A stretch of DNA of 64,000 bases from Candidatus Izemoplasmatales bacterium (GTDB lineage Bacteria; Bacillota_I; Bacilli_A; Izemoplasmatales; Hujiaoplasmataceae): positions 1-64,000 of the forward strand of contig JAQUZN010000001.1 in the NCBI GenBank assembly GCA_028691315.1, written 5' to 3'. Every line of letters starts with the position of its first letter. The stretch's first letter is position 1. A program made the translations under genes and the position numbers. The notes below the pieces were generated by a model, which saw only the letters and a program-made list of their open reading frames with translations, ran no database searches and was not told the DNA's origin. Of the stretch, positions 328-51,487 are shown in pieces.

Positions 328-714
328 ATGAATTCATATGATGATGGTATTTGGTATCATATACCAGGGTTTAATGGATACCAAATCAACAAAGAAGGCG
401 TTGTACGTTCTATGAAGATGATGTGGGCTAATCCAGGTCATCTATTAAAAAGAACGAGTAATGGAAATGCTTATGTTTTAACCAATGATTCTAATGTGAG
501 AAAAACAGTAAGAATAAAAACTCTATTAGATCTAACATTTAAAGATCAAAAGCCTATTGCTTGTCTTGATGATGAAGTATATCTCGGGGGAAGAAACAAA
601 GTATTTAATACAAAAACGATGGAGATAAAACCAAAGACAGTGAAACTTAGTATTATGAATAACGTTGTCAAAGAGGAGTCAAAGAAGTATGAGCCGATCC
701 GTTTTTATGATTAA
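328..714 (+). CDS. NUMOD4-domain protein with C-terminal YEPIRF tag
   Basis: This 128-residue protein begins with a clear NUMOD4 motif at about residues 9-31 (WYHIPGFNGYQIN...GVVRS). NUMOD4 is a DNA-binding module usually attached to HNH or GIY-YIG homing endonucleases. No HNH or other nuclease motif is visible here, so it is either a DNA-binding protein or the remnant of a homing endonuclease. The last residues are YEPIRFYD; the hexapeptide YEPIRF (121-126) matches the [YF]xPIx[FYW] peptide found on several replication and transcription proteins of this genome. The start has a good AGGAGG site. It lies about 40 nt upstream of the topoisomerase gene and is probably cotranscribed with it. Confidence 0.65.
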   Translation: MNSYDDGIWYHIPGFNGYQINKEGVVRSMKMMWANPGHLLKRTSNGNAYVLTNDSNVRKTVRIKTLLDLTFKDQKPIACLDDEVYLGGRNKVFNTKTMEIKPKTVKLSIMNNVVKEESKKYEPIRFYD

Positions 715-11114: not shown

Positions 11115-12221
11115 ATGAAACAAAAATTATTCGGCATGGGAGCCGCAGGAAACAAAGCAGCAATGCTCGCAACAGAAAGTAATATAATCGAGAAAGAAAA
11201 CGTAATTCTATTCAACAGTACAGCTACGGATATTCCGAGATCATATGACGGTCAAGTTATAGAATTTCCAGGTAATGTTGGGGGTACCGGAAAAGATCGA
11301 AATATCTCTAAGAGACAAGCAAAATTAGCAATTGATAATAAATCAATTGATTTAAAAACATTATTATCAGATGCAGATGGAAACCAAGTAGATCAGGTTA
11401 TCTTTGTAACCTCTACGGATGGAGGATCGGGTTCAGGTTCTACAACAGTTATTGCCGAGTATATTCATAAGACATTTAAGATGCCGGTTATGATATTCGC
11501 AATTATTGGCAGACCAAAAGATATTCGTGGATCAAGGAATACCGTCGAATTCTTTAAAGAAATTGGTAATAAGTTTACAGTTGCCATTATTGAGAATAAA
11601 AAAGTGGCCGAAGGACCAGACGATACTAATGACTCTGCAATCGAAGCAAAAGCTAATGCAGAATTTTGTAGAGAGTTATCCTTGTTTTTAGGTAATCAGA
11701 TTGAAGATGACAATATGGAACAGAATCTGGATGAGAGGGAGCTTTATAAGCTTCGTACAACACCAGGATATACCATCATGTCAACGACGATATTTGATAA
11801 CAAAATAAAGAATATCGAACAAACAAGAAAGGAAGTTGCAGAGAGTTTAGATAATATCTGCAATCCTGATCCAGATAATAAGGATATGGCTAGACTTGGA
11901 TTGGTCTATAATTGTGACAGAGAAGAATCTTCTTTCATGGACGTTCTTCCGGTTATCAAAGATAAATTCGGTCTGGCATTCGAAGTGTTTACCCATAGGC
12001 AGTATAATAACAAATCGCCAAGGATTGTTGGAATTATAATGGCTGGTTTGGCTATGCCTATGAAAGAAATTCAGGATATTTATGAAGAGTATAAAGAGGC
12101 AACATCAATGATCAATAAGCAGGAAGATAATTTCTTTAACTCCATTAAAACAATGGAATTTGATGATAGCGATTCCTTCTTTGAAGGTGATGATGATATC
12201 GACTCTTTACTCGGTTTATAA
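11115..12221 (+). CDS. Tubulin/FtsZ-family GTPase (PhuZ/TubZ-like)
   Basis: This 368-residue protein is a phage tubulin homolog that should bind GTP and polymerise. The N-terminus has the G-rich first loop (LFGMGAAGNKAA, 5-16). The tubulin signature is TSTDGGSGSGS at residues 99-109, and later FKEIGNKFTVAI and DRE segments fit the core. The C-terminus is a highly acidic tail (DDSDSFFEGDDDIDSLLGL), similar in character to the acidic knuckle or tail that controls polymerisation in phage tubulins. In phiKZ-like phages PhuZ filaments centre and transport the phage nucleus, while TubZ segregates plasmids. The choice between these roles is open. AAGGAGG lies upstream, and the partner-like gene at 12233 follows after 11 nt. 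Confidence 0.85.
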   Translation: MKQKLFGMGAAGNKAAMLATESNIIEKENVILFNSTATDIPRSYDGQVIEFPGNVGGTGKDRNISKRQAKLAIDNKSIDLKTLLSDADGNQVDQVIFVTSTDGGSGSGSTTVIAEYIHKTFKMPVMIFAIIGRPKDIRGSRNTVEFFKEIGNKFTVAIIENKKVAEGPDDTNDSAIEAKANAEFCRELSLFLGNQIEDDNMEQNLDERELYKLRTTPGYTIMSTTIFDNKIKNIEQTRKEVAESLDNICNPDPDNKDMARLGLVYNCDREESSFMDVLPVIKDKFGLAFEVFTHRQYNNKSPRIVGIIMAGLAMPMKEIQDIYEEYKEATSMINKQEDNFFNSIKTMEFDDSDSFFEGDDDIDSLLGL

Positions 12222-12232
12222 AAGGAGGAAAT

Positions 12233-13105
12233 ATGTTTAAATCCCTTGAGCAAGCAAAAGGAAGAAAGAAACCAATAGGAGCAGCCACAAAGATTAATAT
12301 TGCAAACAATATTAAAATTAATGTGGATAAGATTAAGAGTATTGATTTTGATGCTCAATCTGATGAAGATTTAGTGAAACTTTGTTTAGAAAGTTATGAT
12401 AAAATTTTAAGCCACACATTCGATGATGAATATGCTTCATTCCGAATGATGACTAATACGAAATTCGTTATCGCTTTCTCACAGGCAATGTATTCGGTTG
12501 AGTTAAATGATCGACAAAGAAAACAAATCTGTAATGTTATTTTCTCTATTAGAGCAAAGCAAGACCCAACAATTAGCGATATGCAGAGAATGCTTTTATT
12601 CAATCTTGGGAAGATTGTAAATAAACGAGAAGTGCCAGGTCTAATGAATCTTGGATTTACAGAAGATTTATCAGGTTTACTGTTAATTGCGGCTCATTCT
12701 TCGTTTAATGCGTTTAAACAAGTAAAAAGGATTAATAGGGTTCTCTTAACAGTACAACAGGAAGTATCCGTAGAATCTATCATTAAACTTTATGAAAAGC
12801 TTGGGTACTTTTCGCATTTCACTGATCTCTTTGAGGGTATCATGTATGATAAAATGGATAAATCGAAATTAACTGATATCCAGAAAGAGATCTATGGAAA
12901 TATTGAAATTGCTTTGTTGGATATTATGGAAGAACTTCCTTCCAATCTATGCTATACCTTATTACTAAATTTCACGGATATGGTAAATATGAGAGAGAAA
13001 ATGGATGTGAGATTCAATATACATTCGATTAACTCAACAGATTATCCAAGAATCAATATAGCGATAGGACAGGTAGAACAAAATGGGAAGGTCATTCCGT
13101 TCTAA
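12233..13105 (+). CDS. Unknown protein cotranscribed with the tubulin
   Basis: This 290-residue protein starts 11 nt after the tubulin stop with AAAGGAGG, so the two are almost certainly translated from one message. The N-terminal 35 residues are basic and rich in Lys/Asn/Ile. The rest is helical with a conserved-looking core. No helix-turn-helix like TubR was recognised. A role in controlling or anchoring the filament is inference from position only. Confidence 0.65.
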   Translation: MFKSLEQAKGRKKPIGAATKINIANNIKINVDKIKSIDFDAQSDEDLVKLCLESYDKILSHTFDDEYASFRMMTNTKFVIAFSQAMYSVELNDRQRKQICNVIFSIRAKQDPTISDMQRMLLFNLGKIVNKREVPGLMNLGFTEDLSGLLLIAAHSSFNAFKQVKRINRVLLTVQQEVSVESIIKLYEKLGYFSHFTDLFEGIMYDKMDKSKLTDIQKEIYGNIEIALLDIMEELPSNLCYTLLLNFTDMVNMREKMDVRFNIHSINSTDYPRINIAIGQVEQNGKVIPF

Positions 13106-15037: not shown

Positions 15038-17263
15038 ATGGCAAAATTATTTGACTTTGAAACAGAAATGGACCAAGAGCTACAAAGAATTAGTAATAAA
15101 GAGCAGATTCTTGGAAAAACGTTGATGCAGCCTTTTGCAGCTAATAACAGTGGATCAAGAAAGAATATGTTCTGTATCCAAGTAGAACATTCATTACCAC
15201 TATTACATTCTGAAGTACCATTCATACAGACAGGGTATGAAAATAGCTTTGGAGATTATTCATCGTCGATCATTAAAGCAAAAAGTGATTATGAAGTATT
15301 AGGAAAAGTAACAAAGTTTTCTACCAGAGAAAATCATCATTATTACCTATTGATAAGAGATACCAATACAAATGAATTAGGAGTTATTGAACGGGTGTCA
15401 TATAATCACATTACTGAAACTTATGGGTATCTTTATAATAACTCGGCAATTGATATTCTAAAGATTGGTGATACCATCCAACAAGATGACATTATTCGAG
15501 AATCGGAAGCATTTGATGAATATGGGAATCGATGTGATGGAGTGAATCTCTTGACTACTTATGTTGCTATGGAGAAAAATATGGAAGATGGTATTGTCAT
15601 CTCCGAATCAGCATGTAAGAAGTTAGGATCTCCATTAATCAAAAGAGTTACTGTTATCTTTAATGATAATGACTTTCCTTTAAATATTCATGGAAGTAAT
15701 GAGTATTATAAAGCATTTCCAGAGATTGGTGAGGGTATTGAAAGTGGGATTCTGTGTTGTATCAGACGAGATAATACGGATGAAGCTTTATACACACAAT
15801 CTTGGGATAATTTGCAAAGGATTATGACATCCGATGAAAAGATTACAGTAGAGGGTGATAAGATTATTGATATCAATATCTTCACCAATAATCCAGAGAC
15901 TTTAAAAGAAAGATCTTCTTATGAGCAGTTATTGAAATACTATAATGAGAAGCGGAGATTCTTAGAAGATTTTACATCTATGGTTCAAACATGTATGAAT
16001 CAATATGGAACTTCTAGAATGTCGGAGGATTTGCAGAAGTTATATTTCACAAGTTTAAAAGAATTGGATGAGAAGAAATACTTAAGAGATAACAAAGTCT
16101 ATACTGGCACCATTGTTGAATTTATTGTATTAGAGAATAACTATCCTCATATTGGTGATAAATTAAGTAATCGATATGGAGGGAAAGGGGTAATTTCAGA
16201 AATACGTCCAGATGAATTGATGGCTAGAACCGAAACGGGAGAGATTGTTGATCTATATTTTAATCAGGCAACTTGTATCAATCGATTAAACGATGGACAA
16301 TTAAAAGAACAATCCTTATCTATGATATCGAAACGAATCATCAATTTTTTAAATACGAATACGTTAACAGCAGATGAATCTCTAGGTATCATTTTAGATT
16401 TTATTGGGTTTGTTTCCAAAACTCAAGAAGGTGAATTGAGAGATCTGATAGAAATTATGGATGATATAGAAAAAGAATTCTTTGTAAATGCGATTAAGAA
16501 TGATCCATCCATTTATTTATCGATCAAACCTATGACAGAATCCGTTTCATTAGATGACTTAAATGCGATCTACCAAACATTTCCTTGGATTGATCAATAT
16601 GAATTATATTCACCATTACAAGATAGCAATGGCAATTATCGATATATCAAGAGTATGAGAAAAGCTACTTGTGGTTACTTATACATTTATCGTTTAAAAC
16701 AATATGCGGAAGAGAAGTTCTCGGTTACAAACTTATCTGCTACAAATCTTAGAAATGAAAACACAAGATCAAAAGCAAATAAGAATTATCGTGCAACTCA
16801 TCAAAATACACCTATTAGATTTGGTGATATGGAGAGTGGTGATCTTAGTCATCTTGGAATGGAAACATTCGTAGAGGCTTTATTAATCTATTCATTATCC
16901 CCAATTGCTAGAAATGAAATGGAAGACTTATGGACAAGTGATCCGTTTAATATCAATATACAATTAGGACCAGATTGTAAGAATCGATCGGTAGAAATAT
17001 TAAACACTTATTTTAAACAGATTGGTTTGCAATTGATCTTTGAGAAACATGAAAAGAAAATTACATTCCCAATACAGTTTGCTCCATATGTTGAAATTGA
17101 GAAGAAAGATAGATCTGTCATCTCATTTGTAGAAACGGGAGAACAAATTGATCCGGAAAAATATGTGAAAACAATCGATGAGATTAAAGAATTAGATAAA
17201 CGTCGATTAATTAAATTTGCTCCTATCAGATACAAAGATGATGAATGGATCAAGAGGGAGTAA
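15038..17263 (+). CDS. RNA polymerase beta subunit, C-terminal half
   Basis: This 741-residue protein covers the double-psi barrel half of RNAP beta. NMEDGIVISES (181-191) matches the bacterial yNfEDAivISE motif. GDKLSNRYGGKGV (373-385) matches GDKmagRhGnKGV, whose basic residues contact the nascent RNA and active site. GDMESGDLSHLGMETFVEALL (from residue 596) matches the GEMEvwALeAyGA region that binds beta-prime. The N half is a separate gene at 21487. The very C-terminus carries FAPIRY (727-732), the recurrent tag peptide. ATGGAGG precedes the start. As in phiKZ/AR9, the split subunits should assemble into one polymerase. Confidence 0.9.
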   Translation: MAKLFDFETEMDQELQRISNKEQILGKTLMQPFAANNSGSRKNMFCIQVEHSLPLLHSEVPFIQTGYENSFGDYSSSIIKAKSDYEVLGKVTKFSTRENHHYYLLIRDTNTNELGVIERVSYNHITETYGYLYNNSAIDILKIGDTIQQDDIIRESEAFDEYGNRCDGVNLLTTYVAMEKNMEDGIVISESACKKLGSPLIKRVTVIFNDNDFPLNIHGSNEYYKAFPEIGEGIESGILCCIRRDNTDEALYTQSWDNLQRIMTSDEKITVEGDKIIDINIFTNNPETLKERSSYEQLLKYYNEKRRFLEDFTSMVQTCMNQYGTSRMSEDLQKLYFTSLKELDEKKYLRDNKVYTGTIVEFIVLENNYPHIGDKLSNRYGGKGVISEIRPDELMARTETGEIVDLYFNQATCINRLNDGQLKEQSLSMISKRIINFLNTNTLTADESLGIILDFIGFVSKTQEGELRDLIEIMDDIEKEFFVNAIKNDPSIYLSIKPMTESVSLDDLNAIYQTFPWIDQYELYSPLQDSNGNYRYIKSMRKATCGYLYIYRLKQYAEEKFSVTNLSATNLRNENTRSKANKNYRATHQNTPIRFGDMESGDLSHLGMETFVEALLIYSLSPIARNEMEDLWTSDPFNINIQLGPDCKNRSVEILNTYFKQIGLQLIFEKHEKKITFPIQFAPYVEIEKKDRSVISFVETGEQIDPEKYVKTIDEIKELDKRRLIKFAPIRYKDDEWIKRE

Positions 17264-17332: not shown

Positions 17333-17671
17333 ATGGCAGGATATAAAATAAAACCAGAAGATTATAAAGTCGTTATAGTAAAAGTATATCTTAATGATAA
17401 ACGGCTTTTAAAGTTTAAAACAATTCAACTGAAAGAAACAGGATTACGTAAAACAGAAGAGATGTTAGCCACTTCTAAAGTATTTAGCTTTTCTTATTTT
17501 AAAGGTTTCTTTAGAAAGAAAGTATGTTTCATGACATTCAAATCAGATGCTGTGAAATATATTTCTATGGAAACAGGTAGAGAACTTTCTTTTAGAGAAT
17601 CATCTTGTTTGAGAGAAAAGATTTATACCAATACGAATTATCTCAGTATAAGAGAAGAAGGTGATGAATAA
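17333..17671 (+). CDS. Unknown 112-residue protein, ligase operon
   Basis: This small basic protein, with several Phe/Lys-rich strands in the middle (FSFSYFKGFFRKKVCFMTF), has no recognised domain. Its stop lies 1 nt before the chosen start of the ligase, so the two are translationally coupled. GAGGTG precedes the start. Function unknown. Confidence 0.65.
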   Translation: MAGYKIKPEDYKVVIVKVYLNDKRLLKFKTIQLKETGLRKTEEMLATSKVFSFSYFKGFFRKKVCFMTFKSDAVKYISMETGRELSFRESSCLREKIYTNTNYLSIREEGDE

Positions 17672-17672
17672 G

Positions 17673-20066
17673 ATGGTTTTGATGGGTGAATGGCCACTAG
17701 ATAAGTTATTATATCTTCCGTGTATTATATTAGATGAACTAGAAGATTATAATGGCTATGATTTTAGTTTTAACGTCGATAAGATTGCTGGTTTGTCTAG
17801 ATTAACAGAATATTTTCTCAGCAAGGGTAATGAACGTTTAAACAAAAGAGAGATTCAAACATTAAAGGAATTGATTGAAATAGGGAATATCACTTATAAT
17901 AATACGGATAGGGATCTCTTACCAATAGAAGATGGAATCTATGATCTTCTATTGGAACTCTATAAAGAATACAATCCAAATTATAGAATTGGGGCTAAGC
18001 CAATGATTATCCAACCTTCATCATCAGATACAATCATTGAAGAGAATCAAAAAATAGAACCAATCAAGTATTTAAGTGATGAAGAAAAGAAGAAGATAGA
18101 TGATATGCTGTTTCCTGAACTTCTTCATAGTGATAAGACGTTTACTAAGAGGGATTTATTATATCAACCAATTAGATTTGAAACTCAAGACCAATATATC
18201 ACAAAGAGATTGAGGAATACATCGCATAATCATCCTAATCTCGTTGGCACCTTGGATAAATGTAAATATGTCTTAGATAAACAAGCAATAGATGCTGAAG
18301 TTTATGATGATCCACGAGTCAAGATCTTAGAGAGAGATTTCTTTCTACCTTTAATTCAAAAAGGTATCATCAATATGCAAGATACTTATGTTATGATTGC
18401 AGAATTAAAGTATGACGGAGTATCTGTTGTAGGAGAAATTGAGAATGGTATGATCACATCAGCTATTACGAGAGGTGATGTAGAAGATTCTATTGCATCA
18501 GATTTAACACCATTGTTTGAAGGTTATGTGTTTCCTAATGCGTTTCATCACGAGATTGAACCATTTGGCATGAAGTTTGAAGCTATTGTGAATTATCGAG
18601 TATTGCAACAGCTCAATAGCATGAGAAGTGAAAAATATATTAATCCAAGAACATGTATTATTGGTTTAACGAATGCTTCTGATGCAAGACAATATCGAGA
18701 TTTAATTACATTGATTCCATTAGCAACTTCATTAGAAGATAAAAATGGAGAACCGATTGATCGATTAGTTGAAATAGAATTTATGAATCGATTCTATACA
18801 AGAGATGAACTATTAAGATTTCAAGTGATCTCTGGCAATTATACAGAACTCATGTTTCAAATCAATCGATTTGTGCAAGAAGCGGAATTTGCAAGAGACT
18901 ATCTTCCTTTTATGTATGATGGCGTGGTATTATCATTCTATGATCCAAAGATCAGAAAGCTATTGGGAAGAGAGAATTCAGTTAATAAGTATTCTATGGC
19001 AATTAAATTCAATGCAGAAAAAAAGAATACGATGTTTTTAGGTTATACCTTTGAAGTGGGGCAGAATGGAGTGATCACTCCGATGATTCATTATCAAGCA
19101 ATTGAGTTTATGGGAGCTAGGCATACAAAATCATCGGGTCATTCTTATGAAAGATTTAAGAACTTAGCTTTGAAAGTGGGGGATATTGTGAGTGTAGAGT
19201 ATCGGCATGATGTTATGCCATATGTATCAGCATTGGATATTCAAAAGAATCGAGATAATCCAAATCCAGTATTTGAATTTCCGATTAAATGTCCGATATG
19301 TGGAACCAGACTGGTGGAATCTGAATCAGGTAAATCTATTTATTGTTCAAATATCAAGTGTAAAGGAAGATCTTATAAGCGTATGGAAAGCACGCTAGGT
19401 AAACTGGGGATAAGAGATTTTGCATATGAGAGCATAAAGCTTCTCGACGTAACTTCCTTAAGACAATTGCTAGAAATGGACGAAAATGACTTAAATATAT
19501 TAGGACCCAATGATAGATTTAATTTATTAAACCAATTAAACCAATTGAAAAGTAAACCAGAATGGGATTATAAGTTAATTGGTGCTCTTGGGTTTTCTAA
19601 TGTTGCATCCAAGACCTTTAAACTGATTTTTAAGCATTATGACTTGTATGAATTTTATCAATGGTTCAGTACAAAGAAAGCTAGTGAGTTATTAGATGAA
19701 CTTACTAGAATTAGAGGAATTGGTTTTAAAACAATTGAAACGATTGATAATGAATTTCCAGTTTTTGTCGATGATATTGTTTATATTATTGAACACTTTA
19801 ACGTGTTGCCATATAAGCATTCTGGAGAGCAAGATTTAAAGAAGATCGTATTTACTGGATTTCGTGATGATGTGCTATCTGATAAATTATCACAATTAGG
19901 ATTTGATGCAAACCCAACAAACTCATTGACGAAAGACACGTTCTTATTAGTAGTACCATCTGAAACTACCAATACTAGTAAGACTCAGAAAGCAATGAAA
20001 TTTGGGGTTAAGATGCTTCCTGTGCAACAGGTGTGGAATATTATTAATTCCGGTCAGGCCCTGTAA
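17673..20066 (+). CDS. ligA: NAD-dependent DNA ligase with N-terminal extension and BRCT
   Basis: It seals nicks using NAD+. The adenylation motif ELKYDGVSVVG places the catalytic lysine at residue 246 (about 115 in typical LigA), so about 130 extra N-terminal residues are present. Then follow the OB fold, a four-cysteine zinc finger (CPICG at 540, CSNIKC near 556), helix-hairpin-helix segments (IRGIGFKTIETI) and a C-terminal BRCT (FTGFRDD...LGFDA). At 797 residues it is longer than the usual ~670. The extension region contains two tag-like peptides, IEPIKY (128-133) and YQPIRF (164-169). GTG 17661 and ATG 17664 are too close to the AGGTGA site, so ATG 17673 was chosen. Confidence 0.9.
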   Translation: MVLMGEWPLDKLLYLPCIILDELEDYNGYDFSFNVDKIAGLSRLTEYFLSKGNERLNKREIQTLKELIEIGNITYNNTDRDLLPIEDGIYDLLLELYKEYNPNYRIGAKPMIIQPSSSDTIIEENQKIEPIKYLSDEEKKKIDDMLFPELLHSDKTFTKRDLLYQPIRFETQDQYITKRLRNTSHNHPNLVGTLDKCKYVLDKQAIDAEVYDDPRVKILERDFFLPLIQKGIINMQDTYVMIAELKYDGVSVVGEIENGMITSAITRGDVEDSIASDLTPLFEGYVFPNAFHHEIEPFGMKFEAIVNYRVLQQLNSMRSEKYINPRTCIIGLTNASDARQYRDLITLIPLATSLEDKNGEPIDRLVEIEFMNRFYTRDELLRFQVISGNYTELMFQINRFVQEAEFARDYLPFMYDGVVLSFYDPKIRKLLGRENSVNKYSMAIKFNAEKKNTMFLGYTFEVGQNGVITPMIHYQAIEFMGARHTKSSGHSYERFKNLALKVGDIVSVEYRHDVMPYVSALDIQKNRDNPNPVFEFPIKCPICGTRLVESESGKSIYCSNIKCKGRSYKRMESTLGKLGIRDFAYESIKLLDVTSLRQLLEMDENDLNILGPNDRFNLLNQLNQLKSKPEWDYKLIGALGFSNVASKTFKLIFKHYDLYEFYQWFSTKKASELLDELTRIRGIGFKTIETIDNEFPVFVDDIVYIIEHFNVLPYKHSGEQDLKKIVFTGFRDDVLSDKLSQLGFDANPTNSLTKDTFLLVVPSETTNTSKTQKAMKFGVKMLPVQQVWNIINSGQAL

Positions 20067-20155: not shown

Positions 20156-20782
20156 ATGGCAACAGTAGAAATTAAAAATTCAGAACTTTTAAAGGCGGCA
20201 AGACTTGAATTTGACAAACGAGTCGGGGGTCTCGTAAGTGACGAAACAGCAAGAAAAATGTATGAAACATTGTTCATTTCATCAACTGCTTTTTTAGCAG
20301 TTGTAAAAACAACGAAGAATCCGGTAGCTTTGATCGTAGATGATACGGAAGGCAATTTCATCATTGCTGGAGTGGTAGAATATAATGAAGCTCCAGAAAA
20401 AGAAGATGATGTTCTTGGTAACTGGAATTATTACTGGACATTCTCAAAAGATGATCTGCCGGAGAATACAACCATCTACAACATCAAAGATACGCAATCT
20501 CATTCTGTAATTATCCAGACATCTTGGGAGAAGACATCTGCTCGTTTTGAAGGAACGGAAAGTCTGATCAATACTTTCATTATTGCTTTTGATATCTTAA
20601 AAGATTTCTTGTATGAAAATGCAAGAGAAGGAGATACTTATGAGCTGGTATACCCAGGTGTGTTTACAGCAATGGCAGCCATTGAAGATGGAGAGAAAGT
20701 AATCTCTATCACTCCAGATGGACTTCTGAAGAAAATGATTAAGGATGATGCGGCTGTAGAGAAAGAATCTAAGACTGCTTAA
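20156..20782 (+). CDS. Unknown 208-residue protein with strong expression signals
   Basis: This soluble, acidic mixed alpha/beta protein has no recognised motif. It has a consensus promoter-like element, a full AGGAGG site and its own strong terminator, so it is probably expressed abundantly on its own and by read-through to the RNAP beta N gene. The C-terminus is charged (DDAAVEKESKTA), as in some single-strand-binding proteins, but no OB-fold or acidic FF tail is visible. Function unknown. Confidence 0.65.
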   Translation: MATVEIKNSELLKAARLEFDKRVGGLVSDETARKMYETLFISSTAFLAVVKTTKNPVALIVDDTEGNFIIAGVVEYNEAPEKEDDVLGNWNYYWTFSKDDLPENTTIYNIKDTQSHSVIIQTSWEKTSARFEGTESLINTFIIAFDILKDFLYENAREGDTYELVYPGVFTAMAAIEDGEKVISITPDGLLKKMIKDDAAVEKESKTA

Positions 20783-20857: not shown

Positions 20858-21487
20858 ATGATGCAGAGCAAAGCTAAAATAAAAAATAAAATGTATGACG
20901 TCTGCACGTTAGAACAATATACACAAAATCCAAATCAGTATTTGGAAGGTCATACAGCAATTGTTGAAGGTGACCATTTATACCCAGTATTAAACTCAAC
21001 TCAATTCGGACCTGGGGTGAGAGTTAATCGTGGAAGCATTTCATACTTCACTCATCCAAAAGAGGATGATCCAGATTATCAAAAAGAAAATGCGATTGAT
21101 TTTAATGAAGTAAAAGATATTGCATCGATGATTGATCGATTAGAAGCAGTAAAGAAGATAGAAGGTGAAGTATTAACTTCTCCGGATAATATCTTTACGA
21201 CAAAGATACTACCTGGTGATACACCGGAAATGACAGCGTTAAAGACAGCAATCAATAAGAAACAAATAGACCTTGATAAATATAGTTATCGATTTGGTGC
21301 AAATTATAATAACGATAAACGGTTATTGAATAAATCAACTATTTCATTGGGTATGATGAAACGTATTGGGAATGCATTAGATCTAGATATCAGTCTAAAG
21401 ATCAGTGATACTCCAGATGCACCAAATCCAATGGGAGAAGAAATCGAAATTAAATTGACGGGGTATGAGAGTGAAGGAGAATCGTAA
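20858..21487 (+). CDS. Unknown protein upstream of RNAP beta N half
   Basis: This 209-residue acidic protein has a C-terminal segment (ISLGMMKRIGNALDLDISLKI then APNPMGEEI, about 165-200) that resembles the regulator-like helix pair of phage and plasmid HTH proteins followed by a Pro-rich loop. A DNA-binding role is possible but not shown. The last A of its TAA is the first base of the RNAP beta N start (TAATG), so the two are coupled. This makes a polymerase-associated role worth considering. Confidence 0.6.
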   Translation: MMQSKAKIKNKMYDVCTLEQYTQNPNQYLEGHTAIVEGDHLYPVLNSTQFGPGVRVNRGSISYFTHPKEDDPDYQKENAIDFNEVKDIASMIDRLEAVKKIEGEVLTSPDNIFTTKILPGDTPEMTALKTAINKKQIDLDKYSYRFGANYNNDKRLLNKSTISLGMMKRIGNALDLDISLKISDTPDAPNPMGEEIEIKLTGYESEGES

Positions 21488-23208
21488 TGAAAGAAATGAC
21501 ACAAGCTCAGTTTATTCGTCAAATGAATGAAAAAACGAGAGAGAAATTTAATGATTCCCTATTCGAAAGAACTGATCAGGATACGATCAATGAGATAGAA
21601 AAAGTTGTACGTTCCTGTGAAAGAAACAATAAATATTATACCATCAAAGTTCATGATTTTTATACCATTCGAGATTATGATGAAATATATCATCGAATGA
21701 AAACACATGAACTGAATAGAATTAAAAGCAACAATCAAAAGATCAGGAATGAAATCGAAGATCGATATGACACGATACAATTGAAAGATTCTGATATCTT
21801 TTTAATTGTTGTAGTATACCATCTTCGAATCAATACGATAGACGAATTAACAGGAAAATATCCAGAGAAATATTTAGAGGTACTAATTCAAGTACCAAAG
21901 ATTGTTGATAAATATTATATTAGAGTTTTTGGTAATCATTATCTAGCTATTTATCAAATCGTGGATGGTTCTACTTATAATAACTCTCAATCGACATCAA
22001 AGCATCCAAATGTGACATTGAAGACTATGTTTATGGCTACTCGTATTTATCGATATGCGGATACTATTCGACCATTAAAGAGTTGCGGATCAGTAGAACC
22101 AATTTCAATCTTGTATTATGATTCCAGAATCTTCGGTAAACAGGTTCCGGTTATGAAATATCTATTGGCTAAATATGGTTATACAGATGCCACTACAAAG
22201 CTAAAGATTCAAACGATATTGATTAATGACTATGATATCGAAAATCCGGATTACTTGACATTTAAACGACATAATGTCTTTGTATCTGTGCCGAAATATA
22301 TCTTTGCGAATGATGTTGCTACACAGTCTATGGTATATACCATCTTTCATTCGATTGAAAAGTCAACAACATCTGCTGAGATGCATACACAAGACTTTTG
22401 GCTGAGATCTCTTGGGGCTAATTTCAACTCTGATACTGTTGAGAAAGGACTGGAGATCTTAGATTCATTAGAATGTATTTATGATATTTCAACCAAAGAA
22501 TCGATTCATTTGCCGGAAGAAGATAAACAAGATATTTTCCATGTATTTATCTGGATAGTTAGAGAATTTCCAAATCTACGTGGTAAAGATAATCTTGATT
22601 TATCTACAAAGAGAATTCGATTACCGGAATATCAATCAGCAATTTATGGAATGAAGATCGCTCGTAATATTATAAGAACTGGTAATATTGGGAAATCAAT
22701 ACAGATAACAGATCTTGAGAAAGCCGTTTATACGCAACCAGATTTCCTGATTAAGAAAATTACAAAAGATAGTTTAATTAATTACCGAAATTCGGTTAAT
22801 GATTTAGATAGTATGAATGCAATCAAATGGACTTATAAAGGAGTATCTGGTTTGGGTGATGGGTCTTCGATTCCGGATAGTTATCGTAAGGTAGATAAGT
22901 CTTACATTGGTAGATTAGATATGGATGCAGCTCCTTCTACAGATCCAGGGATGAGTGGGACTCTTTGTCCATTGGCAGATATTCAAAATCATTCGTTCTC
23001 AGAATTCTCTGAGCCAAATAATTGGAGAGAAGAAACAGAGCAAATGATGCAAGACTACATGTCATTACGTGGATTAAAAGAGTTAATCACATTCCAAAAA
23101 GAATTGGATATGCCAGTAGAAGAAGAGAAAGAAACGCATCTCGATGAATCAATCAATGCAATGAAGAAGCTATTCAGACCGATATACTTTATAGAAGAAG
23201 GTAAATAA
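21487..23208 (+). CDS. RNA polymerase beta subunit, N-terminal half
   Basis: This 573-residue protein covers the lobe/protrusion half of beta. The diagnostic stretch is YIGRLDMDAAPSTDPGMSG (residues 473-491), which matches the hPShyGriCPieTPEGpniG region of cellular beta with the fork-loop arginine and glycine positions. NAIKWTYKGVSGLG just before it fits the rpoB SalGpGGl segment. Upstream sequence is very divergent. The protein ends with FRPIYF (563-568), the tag peptide also found at the end of the beta C and beta-prime C pieces. It is coupled by TAATG to the preceding gene. Confidence 0.85.
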   Translation: MKEMTQAQFIRQMNEKTREKFNDSLFERTDQDTINEIEKVVRSCERNNKYYTIKVHDFYTIRDYDEIYHRMKTHELNRIKSNNQKIRNEIEDRYDTIQLKDSDIFLIVVVYHLRINTIDELTGKYPEKYLEVLIQVPKIVDKYYIRVFGNHYLAIYQIVDGSTYNNSQSTSKHPNVTLKTMFMATRIYRYADTIRPLKSCGSVEPISILYYDSRIFGKQVPVMKYLLAKYGYTDATTKLKIQTILINDYDIENPDYLTFKRHNVFVSVPKYIFANDVATQSMVYTIFHSIEKSTTSAEMHTQDFWLRSLGANFNSDTVEKGLEILDSLECIYDISTKESIHLPEEDKQDIFHVFIWIVREFPNLRGKDNLDLSTKRIRLPEYQSAIYGMKIARNIIRTGNIGKSIQITDLEKAVYTQPDFLIKKITKDSLINYRNSVNDLDSMNAIKWTYKGVSGLGDGSSIPDSYRKVDKSYIGRLDMDAAPSTDPGMSGTLCPLADIQNHSFSEFSEPNNWREETEQMMQDYMSLRGLKELITFQKELDMPVEEEKETHLDESINAMKKLFRPIYFIEEGK

Positions 23209-23770: not shown

Positions 23771-24040
23771 ATGTATCAACCAATACGTTATTTAAAAGCA
23801 AATGAATGTCCTATATGCGGTACTCCAACTTTAAATTTAGTCGATATCGACATCGCTATTTATGCTGTGGATGGTACAGGTAAAATGGGAGACCATGTAG
23901 AAGGGTTACAATTCTTTTTACAATGTAGTAAATGTAAGAAGAAATATGAAACAGAGAAGAAAGGTCAATATGTCAGAATTAAGACATCGATTGAAAATGT
24001 TCAATTACATATCGAGGCAAATCCTTTCTATGGCATATAA
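23771..24040 (+). CDS. Zinc-ribbon protein with N-terminal YQPIRY tag
   Basis: This 89-residue protein begins MYQPIRY, the recurrent tag, then carries CPICG at 14-18 and CSKCKKKYE near residue 53, together a four-cysteine zinc ribbon. The architecture (tag, CPxC, about 30 residues, CxxC) matches the gene at 26059. Small ribbons like this often bind nucleic acid or RNAP, but the partner is unknown. It starts 5 nt after the preceding gene. Confidence 0.7.
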   Translation: MYQPIRYLKANECPICGTPTLNLVDIDIAIYAVDGTGKMGDHVEGLQFFLQCSKCKKKYETEKKGQYVRIKTSIENVQLHIEANPFYGI

Positions 24041-25994: not shown

Positions 25995-26066
25995 ATTAAG
26001 AAAATTAAAAAAACAATTGGTCGCATAACAATCATCAATAATAATCAGGATAAACCTAATGAATAG
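25995..26066 (+). CDS. Possible ATT-initiated basic mini-protein
   Basis: AGGAG at 25981-25985 is followed, after 9 nt, by ATT and an open frame of 23 codons (IKKIKKTIGRITIINNNQ...) to TAG 26064-26066, overlapping the next gene's start at 26059. No ATG, GTG or TTG is available in that frame at the right distance. ATT starts exist (infC) but are rare, so this may instead be a translational-coupling leader or nothing. Confidence 0.25.
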   Translation: MKKIKKTIGRITIINNNQDKPNE

Positions 26067-26364
26067 GCCATATCAACCCATATGGTTTGAACCTGATCAT
26101 TGTTGTCCAAAATGCATGATGCAAAAAGCATTGATAATTTATAATAGAAGTAATGGGCAATGTTTTGATTATTCGGAAGTCTTAGATTCCAATCAAACGA
26201 AAGAATTTTTTGATGTGACACAAGGACATACATTCTCACATATGAAATGTAAGTATTGTGGAGAAGAATTCTTTATTGATTGGACAAGAGAAGTTCCAAG
26301 ACCAATGGCTACTTCATCATATCGAAATTTCATTAAGAAATATCGATTAACGAAATTAGATTAA
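26059..26364 (+). CDS. Zinc-ribbon protein with N-terminal YQPIWF tag
   Basis: This 101-residue protein begins MNRPYQPIWFEP, giving the tag peptide at 5-10, then CCPKC (15-19) and CKYCGEEF near residue 70, a four-cysteine ribbon spaced like the gene at 23771. The C-terminus is basic (FIKKYRLTKLD). It is probably a paralog of the 23771 product with an insert. AGGA lies about 10 nt upstream of the start. A strong terminator follows. Confidence 0.7.
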   Translation: MNRPYQPIWFEPDHCCPKCMMQKALIIYNRSNGQCFDYSEVLDSNQTKEFFDVTQGHTFSHMKCKYCGEEFFIDWTREVPRPMATSSYRNFIKKYRLTKLD

Positions 26365-33228: not shown

Positions 33229-34263
33229 TTAATATTCGTTCAATGTTGCATCTCCAATAATAATCAAAGGCATTGTGATATTCATATTAATACTTCTTGC
33301 TACTTTATTTTTTATATCCAGATCAAATTCATCAATTAGCATAATATCCATTTTATCTGTGTTTGGCACAGGTTCCATAGTTTTCATATTAATAACGTCA
33401 AAATATCGAGCGCCAGTTCTTTGATCATATATGATAACCTGTTCAATATCCGGATTATTTTCTAATGCCATCATATGTTGCTGTGGTGACATATTTTGCA
33501 AATAACTCTCAAATCCACCGGCACCTTGCACATCAACACCACGAATATTGTTTGAACGAAGTGTTAAGTCTTGTGAGGATGGTCCTAGGTTTGAGAATCC
33601 ATAACTTCCCACAGGAGTATTAACAAATGCTTGATAAGCATCCATGATTGCTTTATCATCATCTTGATCATTCATAGTTAATTTCAATTCTTTATAACGT
33701 TTAAATTCCATATCATTACATTTTGATATGGTACTGTTTAATTCTCGAATGGCACTAATCTTATTACCTAAGTAAGTACCAATAGTACCATGAATATCGG
33801 ATAGATATTCATACTTCTTTCGATCTCTTGTTTTCTTTATCTCCGTAGCAACGTCTTGTAATTCTCCCATCCCCATCTCAAGTTGCATGATGGTTCCTTT
33901 TAATAGGTTATTTGTTTCTGTGTATTTTTCTTCATATGGAGTATTAGTTTCAAACTCATTTAATTGACGATCGGATGGTTCTTCTATTGTAACCCCATCA
34001 GAAACTTTTACTTCTACTTTATTTGTTTTTCTTTTTGTTGTCTTTTTATCTGGTTCTTTTTTATCATAATTAGCAGTGACAGCTGTACCACCATTTACCA
34101 TAGAAGATAAATTAAGTTTAAATCCACTATTGTTTGTCTTAACTTCTTCTAACACTTTTTTCTCTGGTTTCTTATCTTCTATATTAGCATTGACTTCAGG
34201 TTCTCTCATTGGAAATTTCTTTTTTTCTTGTTCTTTATCAAAAAATTGTATTGGTTGATACAT
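33229..34263 (-). CDS. Unknown protein with N-terminal YQPIQF tag and coiled coil
   Basis: This 344-residue protein begins MYQPIQFFDKEQEKKK, with the tag peptide at 2-7. A Lys/Glu-rich disordered stretch to about residue 100 is followed by a coiled-coil-like middle (about 115-200) and a globular C-terminus (IIYDQRTGARYFDVINM, MPLIIIGDATLNEY). AGGAGG precedes the start. A CACA-N6-TA element (one mismatch) lies upstream near 34300. It converges on the Rad50-like gene. No family is recognised; among tagged proteins it is the only one with no apparent nucleic-acid motif. Confidence 0.65.
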   Translation of the reverse strand: MYQPIQFFDKEQEKKKFPMREPEVNANIEDKKPEKKVLEEVKTNNSGFKLNLSSMVNGGTAVTANYDKKEPDKKTTKRKTNKVEVKVSDGVTIEEPSDRQLNEFETNTPYEEKYTETNNLLKGTIMQLEMGMGELQDVATEIKKTRDRKKYEYLSDIHGTIGTYLGNKISAIRELNSTISKCNDMEFKRYKELKLTMNDQDDDKAIMDAYQAFVNTPVGSYGFSNLGPSSQDLTLRSNNIRGVDVQGAGGFESYLQNMSPQQHMMALENNPDIEQVIIYDQRTGARYFDVINMKTMEPVPNTDKMDIMLIDEFDLDIKNKVARSINMNITMPLIIIGDATLNEY

Positions 34264-34398: not shown

Positions 34399-36321
34399 AT
34401 GTTAACCAATTATCCACAAGGTTCAGATTTAACAGTGTTGAATACCGTGTATCATAATATGAAGAAAGATGATGTGACCGGTAAATGGAAAAAAGATCAT
34501 ATAACGGTTGTTTATAAAGATAATAAGACAGGTAAAAAAGGTCATGAAGTTATTTACAATCCAGAATATACCTTTTATCAAAGAAAAGAAGATCCTGGAT
34601 ATAATTTATTTTTTACAGAAGAAAAAGATGTAACTCCGATAACTTGCAGATATACTGATATTGAAAAGAAGATTGCAGAATTAACCAATAATATGGATTT
34701 CTTCTATCATAATATCGATACGGGAAATCGAAGAGCAAATAAACAACTTCATACATTAAATACTATCGTTGGTTCAGATATCGATATCGAAGATTATTAT
34801 CGATTTTTATTTGATCTGAATTATAAAAATGATGCTTGTAGTATCACTAAAGCATTCTTCGATATTGAGGTTGATACTATCAATATGAGAGGAGATTTTC
34901 CGGAAATGGGTGAGTGTCCAATCAATGCGATATCTTTTATTAATGAAGCGACAAATGATTTACATGTATTCTTATTAAGAAATAAAGAGAATCCATTGAT
35001 TCAAGAATTTGAAGATAGTGTAAATCCAGAATTGTTCAAAGAATTACAAGAGTTTATCATCGATACCGTTGGTGGGAATGACAAAGCGAAAAAGTTCAAA
35101 GCAGATGCATTCAATTTTAATTTTCATTTTTTTGATGATGAGTTAGAGCTTATTCAGAACTTATTTTTCTTAGTGAATAAACTACAACCAGATTTCTTAT
35201 TAGCATGGAATATGGCATTTGATATGCCATATATCATTGAACGTTTGAAAGTAATGGGTATAGATCCAGCAGATATCCTATCAGATCCTACGTTTATAGA
35301 AAAATATGCCGATTATTATGTAGATGAACGTCATAGAAATGATTATGAGGCAAGGGGTGATTTTTATAATATTGCTTCTCATACCGTTTATCTTGATCAA
35401 TTAATTCACTTTGCATCTAGAAGAAAGAATCAATCACAATTTCCAAACTTTAGATTGGATACGGCAGGTTCTATTTTAGCAGGAGTGAAGAAGTTAGATT
35501 ATAGTCATATCACAACACAGATTTCTAAATTACCATATTTAGATTATAAAACATTTGTGTTCTATAATATCATTGATACTGTTGTGCAGAAATGTATTGA
35601 GATAAAGACTGGTGATGTAGATTACATCTTCACCAAATGTTTGATGAACAATACAAGATATGCAAAAGGTCATAGACAGACTTATTATTTAACAAATCGA
35701 GCAATTAAAGAATTTAGAAAGCAAGGGTATATCTTTGGCAATAATGTGAATAAATACTTTGCAGAAAAGAAAGAGTTTGAAGGAGCGATCGTAAACAATC
35801 CAAAACATAATAGTGATTTTGCAAAGTATAAACAAAATGGAGAAGTATTTGATATTGCAAAGAACTTGGATGATTATGATTATAAATCTCTATATCCAAG
35901 TGTTGCCAGAGAAAATAATCTAGCTCCGAATACTATTATTTCTAAAATCATTATACCGCAGAAAGTGCATGATAAAGAGAATCTCTTTTATAATAAATTT
36001 TATGATAGAGGTGGAGATTTTACGGAAGACTTAATGAGCCAAAATTATATCGAGTTTTCAAATCGATGGTTGGGATTAGCCAATGTGACAGAAATGATTG
36101 AAGATTTGAGAGAGTATTTTGAGAAAGATCCATTCTTTAATATGGTTGATATTGATGATAAGAATCAGAATGTATATCAACCAATTATGTTTGTGGATAA
36201 AGAAAAGTATAAATATTCTCCAATTGTATATTATAATGATGATGAAAAAGGAGTAGAATATACAATACCAGAATGTATTGATTTTAGTTACTATCTTAAT
36301 AAAATGATGTTAGATCAATAG
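34399..36321 (+). CDS. Family B DNA polymerase, exonuclease half with palm motif A
   Basis: This 640-residue protein carries the N-terminal domain and 3'-5' exonuclease of a family B polymerase: FFDIEVD (153-159, Exo I), AWNMAFDMPYI (269-279, Exo II) and YNIIDT (389-394, Exo III). It then reaches polymerase motif A, DYKSLYPS (494-501). The protein stops about 140 residues later, without motifs B and C, which occur in the separate gene at 52292. Near the end are two tag-like peptides, YQPIMF (593-598) and YSPIVY (606-611). The two halves should assemble into one active enzyme. AGGAGG lies upstream. Confidence 0.9.
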   Translation: MLTNYPQGSDLTVLNTVYHNMKKDDVTGKWKKDHITVVYKDNKTGKKGHEVIYNPEYTFYQRKEDPGYNLFFTEEKDVTPITCRYTDIEKKIAELTNNMDFFYHNIDTGNRRANKQLHTLNTIVGSDIDIEDYYRFLFDLNYKNDACSITKAFFDIEVDTINMRGDFPEMGECPINAISFINEATNDLHVFLLRNKENPLIQEFEDSVNPELFKELQEFIIDTVGGNDKAKKFKADAFNFNFHFFDDELELIQNLFFLVNKLQPDFLLAWNMAFDMPYIIERLKVMGIDPADILSDPTFIEKYADYYVDERHRNDYEARGDFYNIASHTVYLDQLIHFASRRKNQSQFPNFRLDTAGSILAGVKKLDYSHITTQISKLPYLDYKTFVFYNIIDTVVQKCIEIKTGDVDYIFTKCLMNNTRYAKGHRQTYYLTNRAIKEFRKQGYIFGNNVNKYFAEKKEFEGAIVNNPKHNSDFAKYKQNGEVFDIAKNLDDYDYKSLYPSVARENNLAPNTIISKIIIPQKVHDKENLFYNKFYDRGGDFTEDLMSQNYIEFSNRWLGLANVTEMIEDLREYFEKDPFFNMVDIDDKNQNVYQPIMFVDKEKYKYSPIVYYNDDEKGVEYTIPECIDFSYYLNKMMLDQ

Positions 36322-49387: not shown

Positions 49388-51487
49388 TCAATCTGGAGTA
49401 TCTGCAAAACTGATGGGACGATATATTGTTTCTTTATCTGACTTGATCTTCTTTCGAACAGGACGCATCTTCGTAAACTCTTGTGGTTTTTCCATGAACA
49501 CTAGATCCATAGTAGAAGGTGCAGTCTTCTTATACATCAGAGGATCAATGATATTAGTTTTAAACTTCTGATATTGCAATGTCGTTGTTACACTTGGATT
49601 TGCATTCAATGCTTTATTCAATGTAATTAATGAATATTTGGTATTCGGAATTCCCCAATCAGGTTTCTCTAATACATCTTCTTTCTCAATAATCTCTTTT
49701 CTTATCTGATTTGATAAGATAATTTCCAAATGAATTGCATCAATATTAATCCCACCATCCATAACAACTTCAATCAATCTTGTAATGAATTGATCTTTCG
49801 TCAGATTCTTAATTGACTCTTCTTTATTTAACAGAGCTGTTACACCCTTCAGAGTCTTAGATAATTCATCATTATCCATATTAATCAAAAATAAGTTATC
49901 TGTTTTCATTTCATCAAAGCTAATATAATAATTATCATCGATTAAATGTTTATCATCCAATTTCAATAATAACTCTTTGGATAGATAAAGATTCTCTTCA
50001 TTCTGTAATGAAATCTTATGCTGGGTTCCATCTGGTAATTGAATACTAAATCGAGTGCAATAATCATTCCAACTCAGATTATCATTATCATCTTCTGAGA
50101 ATATTGATTCACAATCAATGACGATATGATACTTGTCTGGTTGTGGGATACCTTCTTTAATCTTGATAATATTAAAGTTTAATCCAAAATAATTATAGAA
50201 GATATCTTGGAACTCTGGAGTTATAACACGAGATTCCAACAAATGTTTTGCTGATAGCATTCTCTGTGTAAGCAATGATGATAATAACTCAGATGCCATT
50301 TGTCCAATATTAATTTCTCGGTTAGTAAAGTAAAGATCACCATAACATTTTCTACAAATTCCGTGACCCCATACCGCAGATTCACAAGTCATTGGGCTAC
50401 GCATCAATAATGTTTTACCAATGAGATCTTTGTTATCTCTAATTGGATTTGATGATATCCGATATTCAATCCCACGTTCTGAAAATCGATAATATCGTCC
50501 TTTGTAGATATCCAATATCGCTTCATTCTTAATATAAATTGGAATCAGGTTCTTAGTTCTACATGAATACTCTGGATTTGGATTTAAGAAAGTATCTCGA
50601 TTATTTAATGATAAAATACGAGCAAATGCTCCTGAAGTTCCAACGTTCTTGTGGCTGATAATCAGCGCCTGTCTTCCTTTCGAAGATTCCATGTAATAAT
50701 CTCGAATATTTCGTACACCATTATTTGCAAATGACGAATTAATGACCGTAGGATAAATTCCACCTTCACCATCGACCACTGTACCAATATTGATCAAATA
50801 CTCTCGATATTGTTTTCTATTGATTCCCTCCTTGGCTCGGAAGGCATCTGCAAGACTATGGTTTGATTCTTTTATCCTTTGGATTGCAATGTTAGTCTTT
50901 TGATCACCGATATTTTTTACATCCTGTAAAGGAACGTTAGAAAAATCCGTATGTGTACACTCATAGAAGATAGAATCTTCATTCATTAATTTTAAAGTGT
51001 CTTCATTATTAATCGTATTAAAGTAATACAAAGCAAATTCATCATTTGCTTTAAATAATTCTAATGTATCATCAATAATAACATTCAAATCAAGATTACT
51101 ATAATTTTCTCTATGGATATCCAAGAGATTATCATCAATATATTCTTTGATATCATCCGCAGTGAAATTCTCTGACCAATAAAAGAATCGAGATGTTAAT
51201 CTGTCATTAGTTGATAATGGTGCTTTCCAAAACATGATATTCATGAAATATTCAAAGATTGATAATATTACAGATTCATTATCTTCAAAAACAACATTAA
51301 CTTTCATTGCATGTACTTGTTCACGTTCAATCCCATCTCGAAAGATATTAAACAACCATTGAAAATGTGTCATGAGATTATCATTGTGAATATCTTTTGT
51401 ATAAATTGTCATAAAACCCGCTCTTACTAACTCTCCATAAATACCATAATTGTTGATATTTTGTGCAAGTAAATTCACACCTTCCAC
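49388..51487 (-). CDS. RNA polymerase beta-prime subunit, C-terminal half
   Basis: This 699-residue protein holds the bridge-helix and trigger-loop half of beta-prime. SSKGRQALIISHKNVGTSGAF-like sequence fits the bridge-helix region. SPMTCESAVWGHGICRKCYG (about 365-384) matches the bacterial RSvLTCet..GvCakCYG zinc site. GQMASELLSSLLTQRML follows at about 395-411, matching VGiiAAQSigEPgTQltmRtF. The catalytic NADFDGD half is not in the window. The last residues include YRPISF (689-694), the tag peptide. The start is GTG with AAGGAGG 7 nt before it. Confidence 0.9.
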   Translation of the reverse strand: MEGVNLLAQNINNYGIYGELVRAGFMTIYTKDIHNDNLMTHFQWLFNIFRDGIEREQVHAMKVNVVFEDNESVILSIFEYFMNIMFWKAPLSTNDRLTSRFFYWSENFTADDIKEYIDDNLLDIHRENYSNLDLNVIIDDTLELFKANDEFALYYFNTINNEDTLKLMNEDSIFYECTHTDFSNVPLQDVKNIGDQKTNIAIQRIKESNHSLADAFRAKEGINRKQYREYLINIGTVVDGEGGIYPTVINSSFANNGVRNIRDYYMESSKGRQALIISHKNVGTSGAFARILSLNNRDTFLNPNPEYSCRTKNLIPIYIKNEAILDIYKGRYYRFSERGIEYRISSNPIRDNKDLIGKTLLMRSPMTCESAVWGHGICRKCYGDLYFTNREINIGQMASELLSSLLTQRMLSAKHLLESRVITPEFQDIFYNYFGLNFNIIKIKEGIPQPDKYHIVIDCESIFSEDDNDNLSWNDYCTRFSIQLPDGTQHKISLQNEENLYLSKELLLKLDDKHLIDDNYYISFDEMKTDNLFLINMDNDELSKTLKGVTALLNKEESIKNLTKDQFITRLIEVVMDGGINIDAIHLEIILSNQIRKEIIEKEDVLEKPDWGIPNTKYSLITLNKALNANPSVTTTLQYQKFKTNIIDPLMYKKTAPSTMDLVFMEKPQEFTKMRPVRKKIKSDKETIYRPISFADTPD

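Follow-up and report, generated by a model that had tools for sequence, protein, structure and literature searches.

Why would unrelated proteins of a single phage carry the same six residues at their ends or in their linkers? The window analysed here is a stretch of 64,000 nucleotides, bases 1-64000 of contig C189, and represents the first quarter of a jumbo-phage contig of 246,077 bp from a metagenome bin. Its first 127 bases recur at its end, a 127-bp terminal repeat as expected for a complete jumbo-phage genome, which this contig is. The genome is 68% AT and, according to our own gene calls, encodes 215 predicted proteins. A preliminary description had reported a hexapeptide of the form [YF]xPIx[FYW] at the termini or in the linkers of several unrelated proteins, and every occurrence that it gave is present in its place. 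The tag sites of the window, including a weaker copy in the ligase, are:

688..705, plus strand: YEPIRF, 2 aa from the C-terminus of an HNH/NUMOD4-type protein (gene 328-714)
17216..17233, plus strand: FAPIRY, 9 aa from the C-terminal end of non-virion RNA polymerase (RNAP) beta C (gene 15038-17263)
18054..18071, plus strand: IEPIKY, weaker copy in the N-terminal linker of the NAD-dependent ligase (gene 17661-20066)
18162..18179, plus strand: YQPIRF, ligase linker (gene 17661-20066)
23173..23190, plus strand: FRPIYF, 5 aa from the C-terminal end of non-virion RNAP beta N (gene 21487-23208; orthologue of AR9 g105)
23774..23791, plus strand: YQPIRY, N-terminus (residue 2) of zinc-ribbon protein 1 (gene 23771-24040)
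26071..26088, plus strand: YQPIWF, N-terminus (residue 5) of zinc-ribbon protein 2 (gene 26059-26364)
34243..34260, minus strand: YQPIQF, N-terminus (residue 2) of a clade-specific 344-aa protein (gene 33229-34263)
36175..36192, plus strand: YQPIMF, copy 1 in the C-terminal extension of the split family-B polymerase, exonuclease half (gene 34399-36321)
36214..36231, plus strand: YSPIVY, copy 2 in the same extension (gene 34399-36321)
49406..49423, minus strand: YRPISF, 5 aa from the C-terminus of non-virion RNAP beta' C (gene 49388-51487; orthologue of AR9 g154)

The first of these genes, 328-714, matches the HNH endonuclease family phrog_6086 (1.6e-8). Its orthologue in the related phage G150 ends with a tag-like peptide of its own, KPFVI, and those of G151 and G162 are untagged. 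The non-virion RNAP is AR9/PBS1-like, with split beta and beta' plus a promoter-recognition subunit (orthologues of AR9 g089, g105, g154, g226 and g270). Its beta C subunit has 741 aa versus 665 aa for the AR9 orthologue g089, which ends untagged, and the tag-bearing extension of the polymerase exonuclease half is likewise missing in AR9 (554 vs 640 aa).

In a genome of such composition the recurrence might be an artefact of chance, isoleucine and aromatic residues being common in AT-rich proteomes. The preliminary description had proposed to count the expression against shuffled proteomes and to look for enrichment near termini, and both counts came out in its favour: 14 of the 215 proteins contain the strict [YF]xPIx[FYW], where 2,000 residue shuffles predict 1.97 and never exceed 8; in 10 proteins it lies no further than some 12 residues from an end, where the shuffles predict 0.13 and never exceed 2. 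Re-ordered versions of the expression reach at most 6 proteins, and when three-residue patterns at protein ends were searched without bias, PI.F came out on top (15 seen, 0.99 expected, p about 1e-12.6). The shuffles and re-ordered motifs, together with the within-family permutations, internal-segment controls and held-out genome presented below, reject chance or composition, to which we give practically no credit. A DNA repeat can also be ruled out: tag codons vary between copies and follow genome usage, and the DNA flanking the tags is unrelated (about 36% identity), so the recurrence lies at the peptide level.

Outside the window, the following genes of contig C189 carry a tag:

234830-236599: DnaB-like helicase, YRPIYF, C-terminal
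233524-234693: Mre11-like phosphoesterase (nuclease), YIPIKF, N-terminal
232168-232902: PD-(D/E)XK nuclease, variant MVPIYF, N-terminal
103905-105455: ResIII/DEAD helicase, variant, ends IYPITFYD
194408-195235: 275-aa protein of phrog_12252, ends YRPIYFVD
102684-103334: 216-aa protein, STPIWY, N-terminal
239651-240133: 160-aa protein, YMPIQF
122197-123819: promoter-recognition subunit of the non-virion RNAP, variant SRPIRF (orthologue of AR9 g226)

The recognised carriers act on DNA or RNA. In the non-virion RNAP, beta N, beta C, beta' C and the promoter subunit carry a tag; the fifth subunit, beta' N (contig positions 219909-221213), does not. The latter has 434 aa in C189 versus about 505 aa in relatives, and its gene may contain an intron, one being annotated in AR9 g270. 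Also untagged are GyrA, GyrB, UvsX, a Dda-like helicase, the primase, the Rad50-like protein and, in C189, the polymerase palm half. In several relatives, including G151, G153 and G157, the palm half (contig C189 52292-54454) contains an insertion in which some 17 residues separate two tags; in C189 and G150 this insertion is shortened and the tags are lost. A further untagged gene is

11115..12221, plus strand: clade-specific tubulin/FtsZ-family gene (PF00091, a weak match below the curated cut-off)

for which a profile search detected no counterpart in AR9, S6 or phiR1-37. Among the absences listed in the preliminary description, those of GyrA, UvsX, tubulin and the Rad50-like protein stand, whereas the dUTPase was not individually identified. 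Its remark that virion proteins lack the tag also holds, and extends to the identified virion RNAP subunits at 217366-218598 (AR9 g264) and 141740-143119 (AR9 g145). The two C189 paralogues of phrog_12252 differ in this respect: the one at 194408-195235 is tagged, the one at 212162-212923, near the virion RNAP genes, is not. This family of unknown function has two matches in 7/7 cultured relatives tested.

These absences bear on the idea that the tag is a signal for processing, degradation or virion packaging. Terminal peptides are common in such signals and most C189 tags are terminal; nevertheless, virion proteins and the identified virion RNAP subunits are untagged, and tags also occur at N-termini, in linkers and in tandem, where cutting or degradation would be destructive. 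We regard such a role as very improbable.

The decisive information comes from related phages. Single-protein pattern searches did not recover them, and a search with DnaB retrieved no related phage copy from host-bin relatives. An alignment of RNAP beta C, on the other hand, led to 79 viral loci; for eight long records among these, genes were called, reciprocal best hits paired and termini read. The gene calls are home-made and several of the relatives' records are fragments. By DnaB-like helicase and RNAP beta, the nearest cultured relatives are Bacillus AR9/PBS1, BpSp, Staphylococcus S6/SA1/Machias, Listeria LPJP1 and Yersinia phiR1-37, all with less than 60% identity, and no cultured member of the tag-bearing clade was found. 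PBS1, PALS_2 and phiR1-37 have been reported to possess multisubunit RNAPs and to be without chimallin (PMC10299810).

Conservation in relatives, another check that had been proposed at the outset, gave a divided answer: the literal hexapeptide was not found conserved in relatives, but the same sites keep a tag, respelled in lineage-specific letters. In each of 12 tag-bearing phages, a single tag of its own recurs on a common set of unrelated proteins. The tag of C189 is YxPIxF. That of G151 is RGMxY, with DnaB ending in RGMIYE, three copies in the ResIII tail, and a zinc-ribbon protein 1 orthologue that begins MLKRGMIYLD. In G157 it is NPFxH: the Mre11-like protein starts MNFGMNPFIHID, DnaB ends in NPFIHVA and ResIII again has three copies. 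The tags of the others are PMVxF (G153), [AV]IxF (G161), CPIxF (G162), RPFxF (G150) and MCx[IV]V (G154 and G158), so that the eight genomes read besides C189 hold their own phage-specific tags at the same sites. The ligase linker usually has two copies, in relatives as in C189 (116/148 in G157, 123/160 in G151). AR9, S6 and phiR1-37 hold orthologues of many C189 core enzymes, but these are mostly shorter, without tails and without a shared tag. The same unbiased terminal search found no terminal tag in phiKZ.

A permutation test of tail similarity, which needs no motif definition, supports this pattern. Among 12 families, the best six-residue tail match between different proteins scores 18.9 within a phage versus 13.7 between phages (z=23.6; none of 5,000 permutations reaches it), while internal segments of the same proteins, used as control, give a within-between difference of -0.01 (sd 0.19). 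The unbiased terminal search across genomes returns GM.Y (p 1e-15.5), PF.H (1e-18.3), MV.F (1e-11.1), MC..V (1e-16.8), MC.I, PI.F and KPF/RPF; the tag is the top or near-top pattern in most genomes, though not the very top in G161 and G154. In G155, a held-out genome fetched afterwards (tag CPFxI), CPF ranks first (10 seen, 0.11 expected, 1e-16.7), and its carriers are DnaB, ResIII, the 275-aa protein, the Mre11-like protein, the promoter subunit, the 344-aa protein, beta C, beta N, the polymerase and the ligase. The partial genomes G163 (KPIxI) and G171 (KP[LF]xF) agree by inspection, not by unbiased ranking. With the exception of the tail permutation test, the unbiased terminal search and the ranking of G155, G163 and G171, tag expressions were written after the tails had been seen. 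What is observed directly is which proteins carry tags and at which positions, how each phage spells them, and that neither virion proteins nor virion RNAP subunits have them.

Since the spelling differs between phages but agrees, within any one of them, across a recurring set of unrelated proteins, a shared receptor is strongly supported. The earlier proposal of a short linear motif that docks on one shared hub thus finds support in the comparative evidence, the hub itself remaining unproven. Short docking motifs in themselves are nothing new. In agreement with such a motif, the tags recur on unrelated proteins in C-terminal tails, at N-termini and in variable linkers (disorder was not predicted), and tails with multiple copies occur. 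Their common form is a small residue or proline, a hydrophobic, any residue, an aromatic, histidine or aliphatic, any residue, and often Asp or Glu; the alternating hydrophobics suggest, by inference from sequence alone, an extended strand. We therefore lean towards the view that the tag is a docking peptide co-diversifying with one phage-encoded receptor, which would gather replication and transcription proteins. That there is a single receptor, that the phage encodes it and that localisation is the outcome are inferences, in the absence of binding or localisation data.

Which protein might read the tag? Four mostly untagged families, of 208, 209, 181 and 275 aa (the last at 241202-242029), are present in 12/12 tag-bearing phages and undetected in AR9, S6, phiR1-37 and phiKZ. 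The candidates are:

20858..21487, plus strand: 209-aa clade-specific protein, best receptor candidate
21032..21049, plus strand: GSISYF, internal tag-like segment at about residues 59-64 of the 209-aa protein
20156..20782, plus strand: 208-aa clade-specific, mostly untagged protein, alternative receptor candidate
contig C189 240154-240699: 181-aa clade-specific protein, receptor alternative
contig C189 241202-242029: 275-aa clade-specific protein, receptor alternative
12233..13105, plus strand: 290-aa clade-specific all-helical protein adjoining the tubulin gene, weaker receptor candidate

To compare sites, 10,756 alignment windows were scored for a match to the own phage's tag but not to those of others. 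Eleven families reach a score of at least 6 (background sd 1.0; next family 3.3). At the ligase-linker site YQPIRF the aligned relatives carry their own tags (score of this alignment window 10.6). The scan is partly circular for tails, from which the profiles were built, but not for the ligase linker, the palm insertion or the 209-aa protein. In the latter, a segment at a fixed internal place between conserved columns matches the tag of its own phage: RGSISYF in C189, SGMSY in G151, GPFYH in G157, APFNY in G150, GCIDF in G162, GVIGF in G161, QIVSF in G153 and AMVAIV in G154/G158. The 209-aa protein was not used to build the tag profiles, and the agreement is supported by permutation over 20 phages (p=5e-5) as well as in the 11 phages not used in discovery (p=0.027). 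Profile searches in Pfam, PHROGs and PDB gave nothing reliable for this family; the C-terminal half aligns weakly with an XRE-type DNA-binding protein (HTH-like), which is a hint only. On these sequence comparisons the 209-aa protein is the best receptor lead, tentatively, and the identity of the receptor is unproven.

It could be, instead, that the 209-aa protein is just another client with an embedded tag, the receptor being the 208-, 181- or 275-aa protein. The equal distribution of these families, present in all 12 tag-bearing phages and undetected in the outgroups, leaves this a distinct possibility, if short of the likelier one. Against it stands the fixed internal place of the 209-aa segment, client tags being found in tails and linkers; in any case it would change the receptor only, not the docking model. 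The 208-aa protein is modelled with confidence as a new alpha/beta structure, for which no PDB entry matches convincingly and the viral structure library gives only two matches, both uncultured myovirus proteins; in G157 alone it has gained a C-terminal NPFNH tag. As to the 290-aa protein, its model (pLDDT 87.8) has no significant PDB match, and the family was not found in two tag-bearing contigs.

Such peptides may also be compared with sliding-clamp motifs, namely the PIP-box and the bacterial QLxLF-type consensus, where a short motif in tails or linkers also joins unrelated replication enzymes to one hub. By analogy, a clamp-binding-type motif could join polymerase, ligase, helicase, nucleases and RNAP to a sliding DNA platform for processivity or assembly, without compartment sorting. 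The client list indeed overlaps that of clamps (polymerase, ligase, nucleases), the tags lie in tails and linkers, and the weak XRE-type alignment of the 209-aa protein would suit a DNA-bound hub. However, the consensus is another one: the preliminary description had noted that the tag differs from the PIP-box, rightly, and YxPIx[FY] and the tags of relatives fit neither the PIP-box nor QLxLF. Moreover, tags on three or four RNAP subunits and on DnaB are unusual for clamp clients, and no clamp motif is known to be respelled from one sister lineage to the next, as these are. No DnaN- or PCNA-type clamp is encoded on the phage contig (PF02767 was found only on another contig of the bin and PF00705 was absent; diverged gp45-type clamps were outside the search), nor does the 208-aa model match clamps. 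A clamp-type hub consequently seems unlikely, without being negligible.

A hub supplied by the host is a poorer explanation still, and one we find quite improbable. The phages come from different samples, and so presumably from different hosts, which might account for the different tags. Yet the host protein would then need to vary from host to host to the same degree as GMxY, PFxH and MCxIV, unlike conserved bacterial hubs, and the receptor-like 209-aa segment, which follows the tag, is phage-encoded.

Returning to docking on a phage-encoded receptor, the hexapeptide would act as an extended segment of alternating hydrophobics, often followed by an acid, within flexible tails and linkers, and would be read by one receptor of the same phage. 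This receptor would gather the non-virion RNAP, helicases, split polymerase, ligase, Mre11-like and other nucleases and zinc-ribbon proteins, probably in a replication/transcription compartment or phage nucleoid. Tagged proteins may dock as an added strand, which would explain why placement is free, why copies occur in tandem, why spelling is specific to the lineage and why there is an internal copy; if the receptor is the 209-aa protein, cargo tags would imitate the strand by which this protein binds itself. Receptor and tags would change together, giving each phage lineage a private code. As several DNA-handling proteins are untagged, transport with a partner or another route must be assumed: the Rad50-like protein might ride with the Mre11-like protein, the palm with the exonuclease half, and beta' N with the other subunits. 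Untagged gyrase, UvsX and Dda are not accounted for in this way and remain unexplained.

That the gathering place is probably a chimallin-independent DNA compartment rests on the client list and on the parallel with nucleus import in Chimalliviridae, localisation being unproven. In those phages, PicA/Imp1, Imp3-6 and ChmA sort non-virion RNAP, helicases and recombination proteins to the phage DNA, and recognition is phage-specific, such that homologues from sister phages can be rejected (PMC11087766; PMC12908238). In C189 none of the 83 family profiles matches ChmA (chimallin, phiKZ gp54) at E<=0.1, a very diverged shell not being excluded, and none matches PicA/Imp1 (phiKZ gp69); no compartment-forming protein was identified. 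The two systems also differ in their signals. Chimallivirus import is reported to read a folded surface, with no terminal or conserved linear signal shared among cargo, and our own search shows no terminal tag in phiKZ, whereas the cargo of the C189 clade shares a linear terminal tag readable from sequence. C189 further encodes a tubulin (PF00091, weak), and phage-encoded tubulin is not universal in chimalliviruses (PMC12908238). The phage-specific selection of chimalliviruses is presumed to be a response to hostile homing endonucleases (PMC12908238); given such pressure, the tag on the HNH/NUMOD4 protein (688-705) of C189 is notable.

In a broader scenario, the clade would be chimallin-independent and use a private peptide postcode, tag and 209-aa receptor being respelled together in each lineage, so that orthogonal codes exclude co-infecting phages and host enzymes. 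This scenario is conceivable and still rather doubtful. Nuclear localisation signals and PTS1 are similarly transferable address peptides found on many unrelated cargos, but their codes are shared broadly across species, in contrast to a tag private to each phage lineage. We know of no precedent for a lineage-private code, and no tag of this kind was found described in the literature searched, most subscription papers being outside the search. The non-chimallin jumbo phages with multisubunit RNAPs, AR9/PBS1, S6 and phiR1-37, possess the core-enzyme orthologues without tails or tags, and tubulin and the 208- and 209-aa proteins are undetected in them. The signals that decide protein entry into a phage replication compartment are an open question, for which this clade offers a candidate address signal that sequence alone reveals, in some dozen natural versions carried by one recurring set of proteins. 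Peptides could thus be used to test directly the identity of the receptor, the orthogonality of the codes and the model of phage competition. The clade would also provide a rare natural series of co-evolving motif-receptor pairs, and possibly a source of orthogonal peptide-docking modules.

Some additional observations were made in the same genomes. Staphylococcus phage S6 (L233-L246) has terminal patterns of its own, WIM in 9 proteins (0.08 expected) and V...FK in 23 (3.47 expected), which represent perhaps a paralogous family or another terminal code. In G154 (L186-L198), MW.W is terminal in five proteins (0.01 expected) and distinct from the MCxIV tag. The DnaB match crosses one TGA each in L111 (G168:C1:93451-95079) and L126 (G150:C1:877-1686), which may reflect a frameshift, a split gene or recoding. 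Finally, contig C189 encodes a GroEL-like chaperonin at 86673-88433 (phrog_5725, 3.1e-58).
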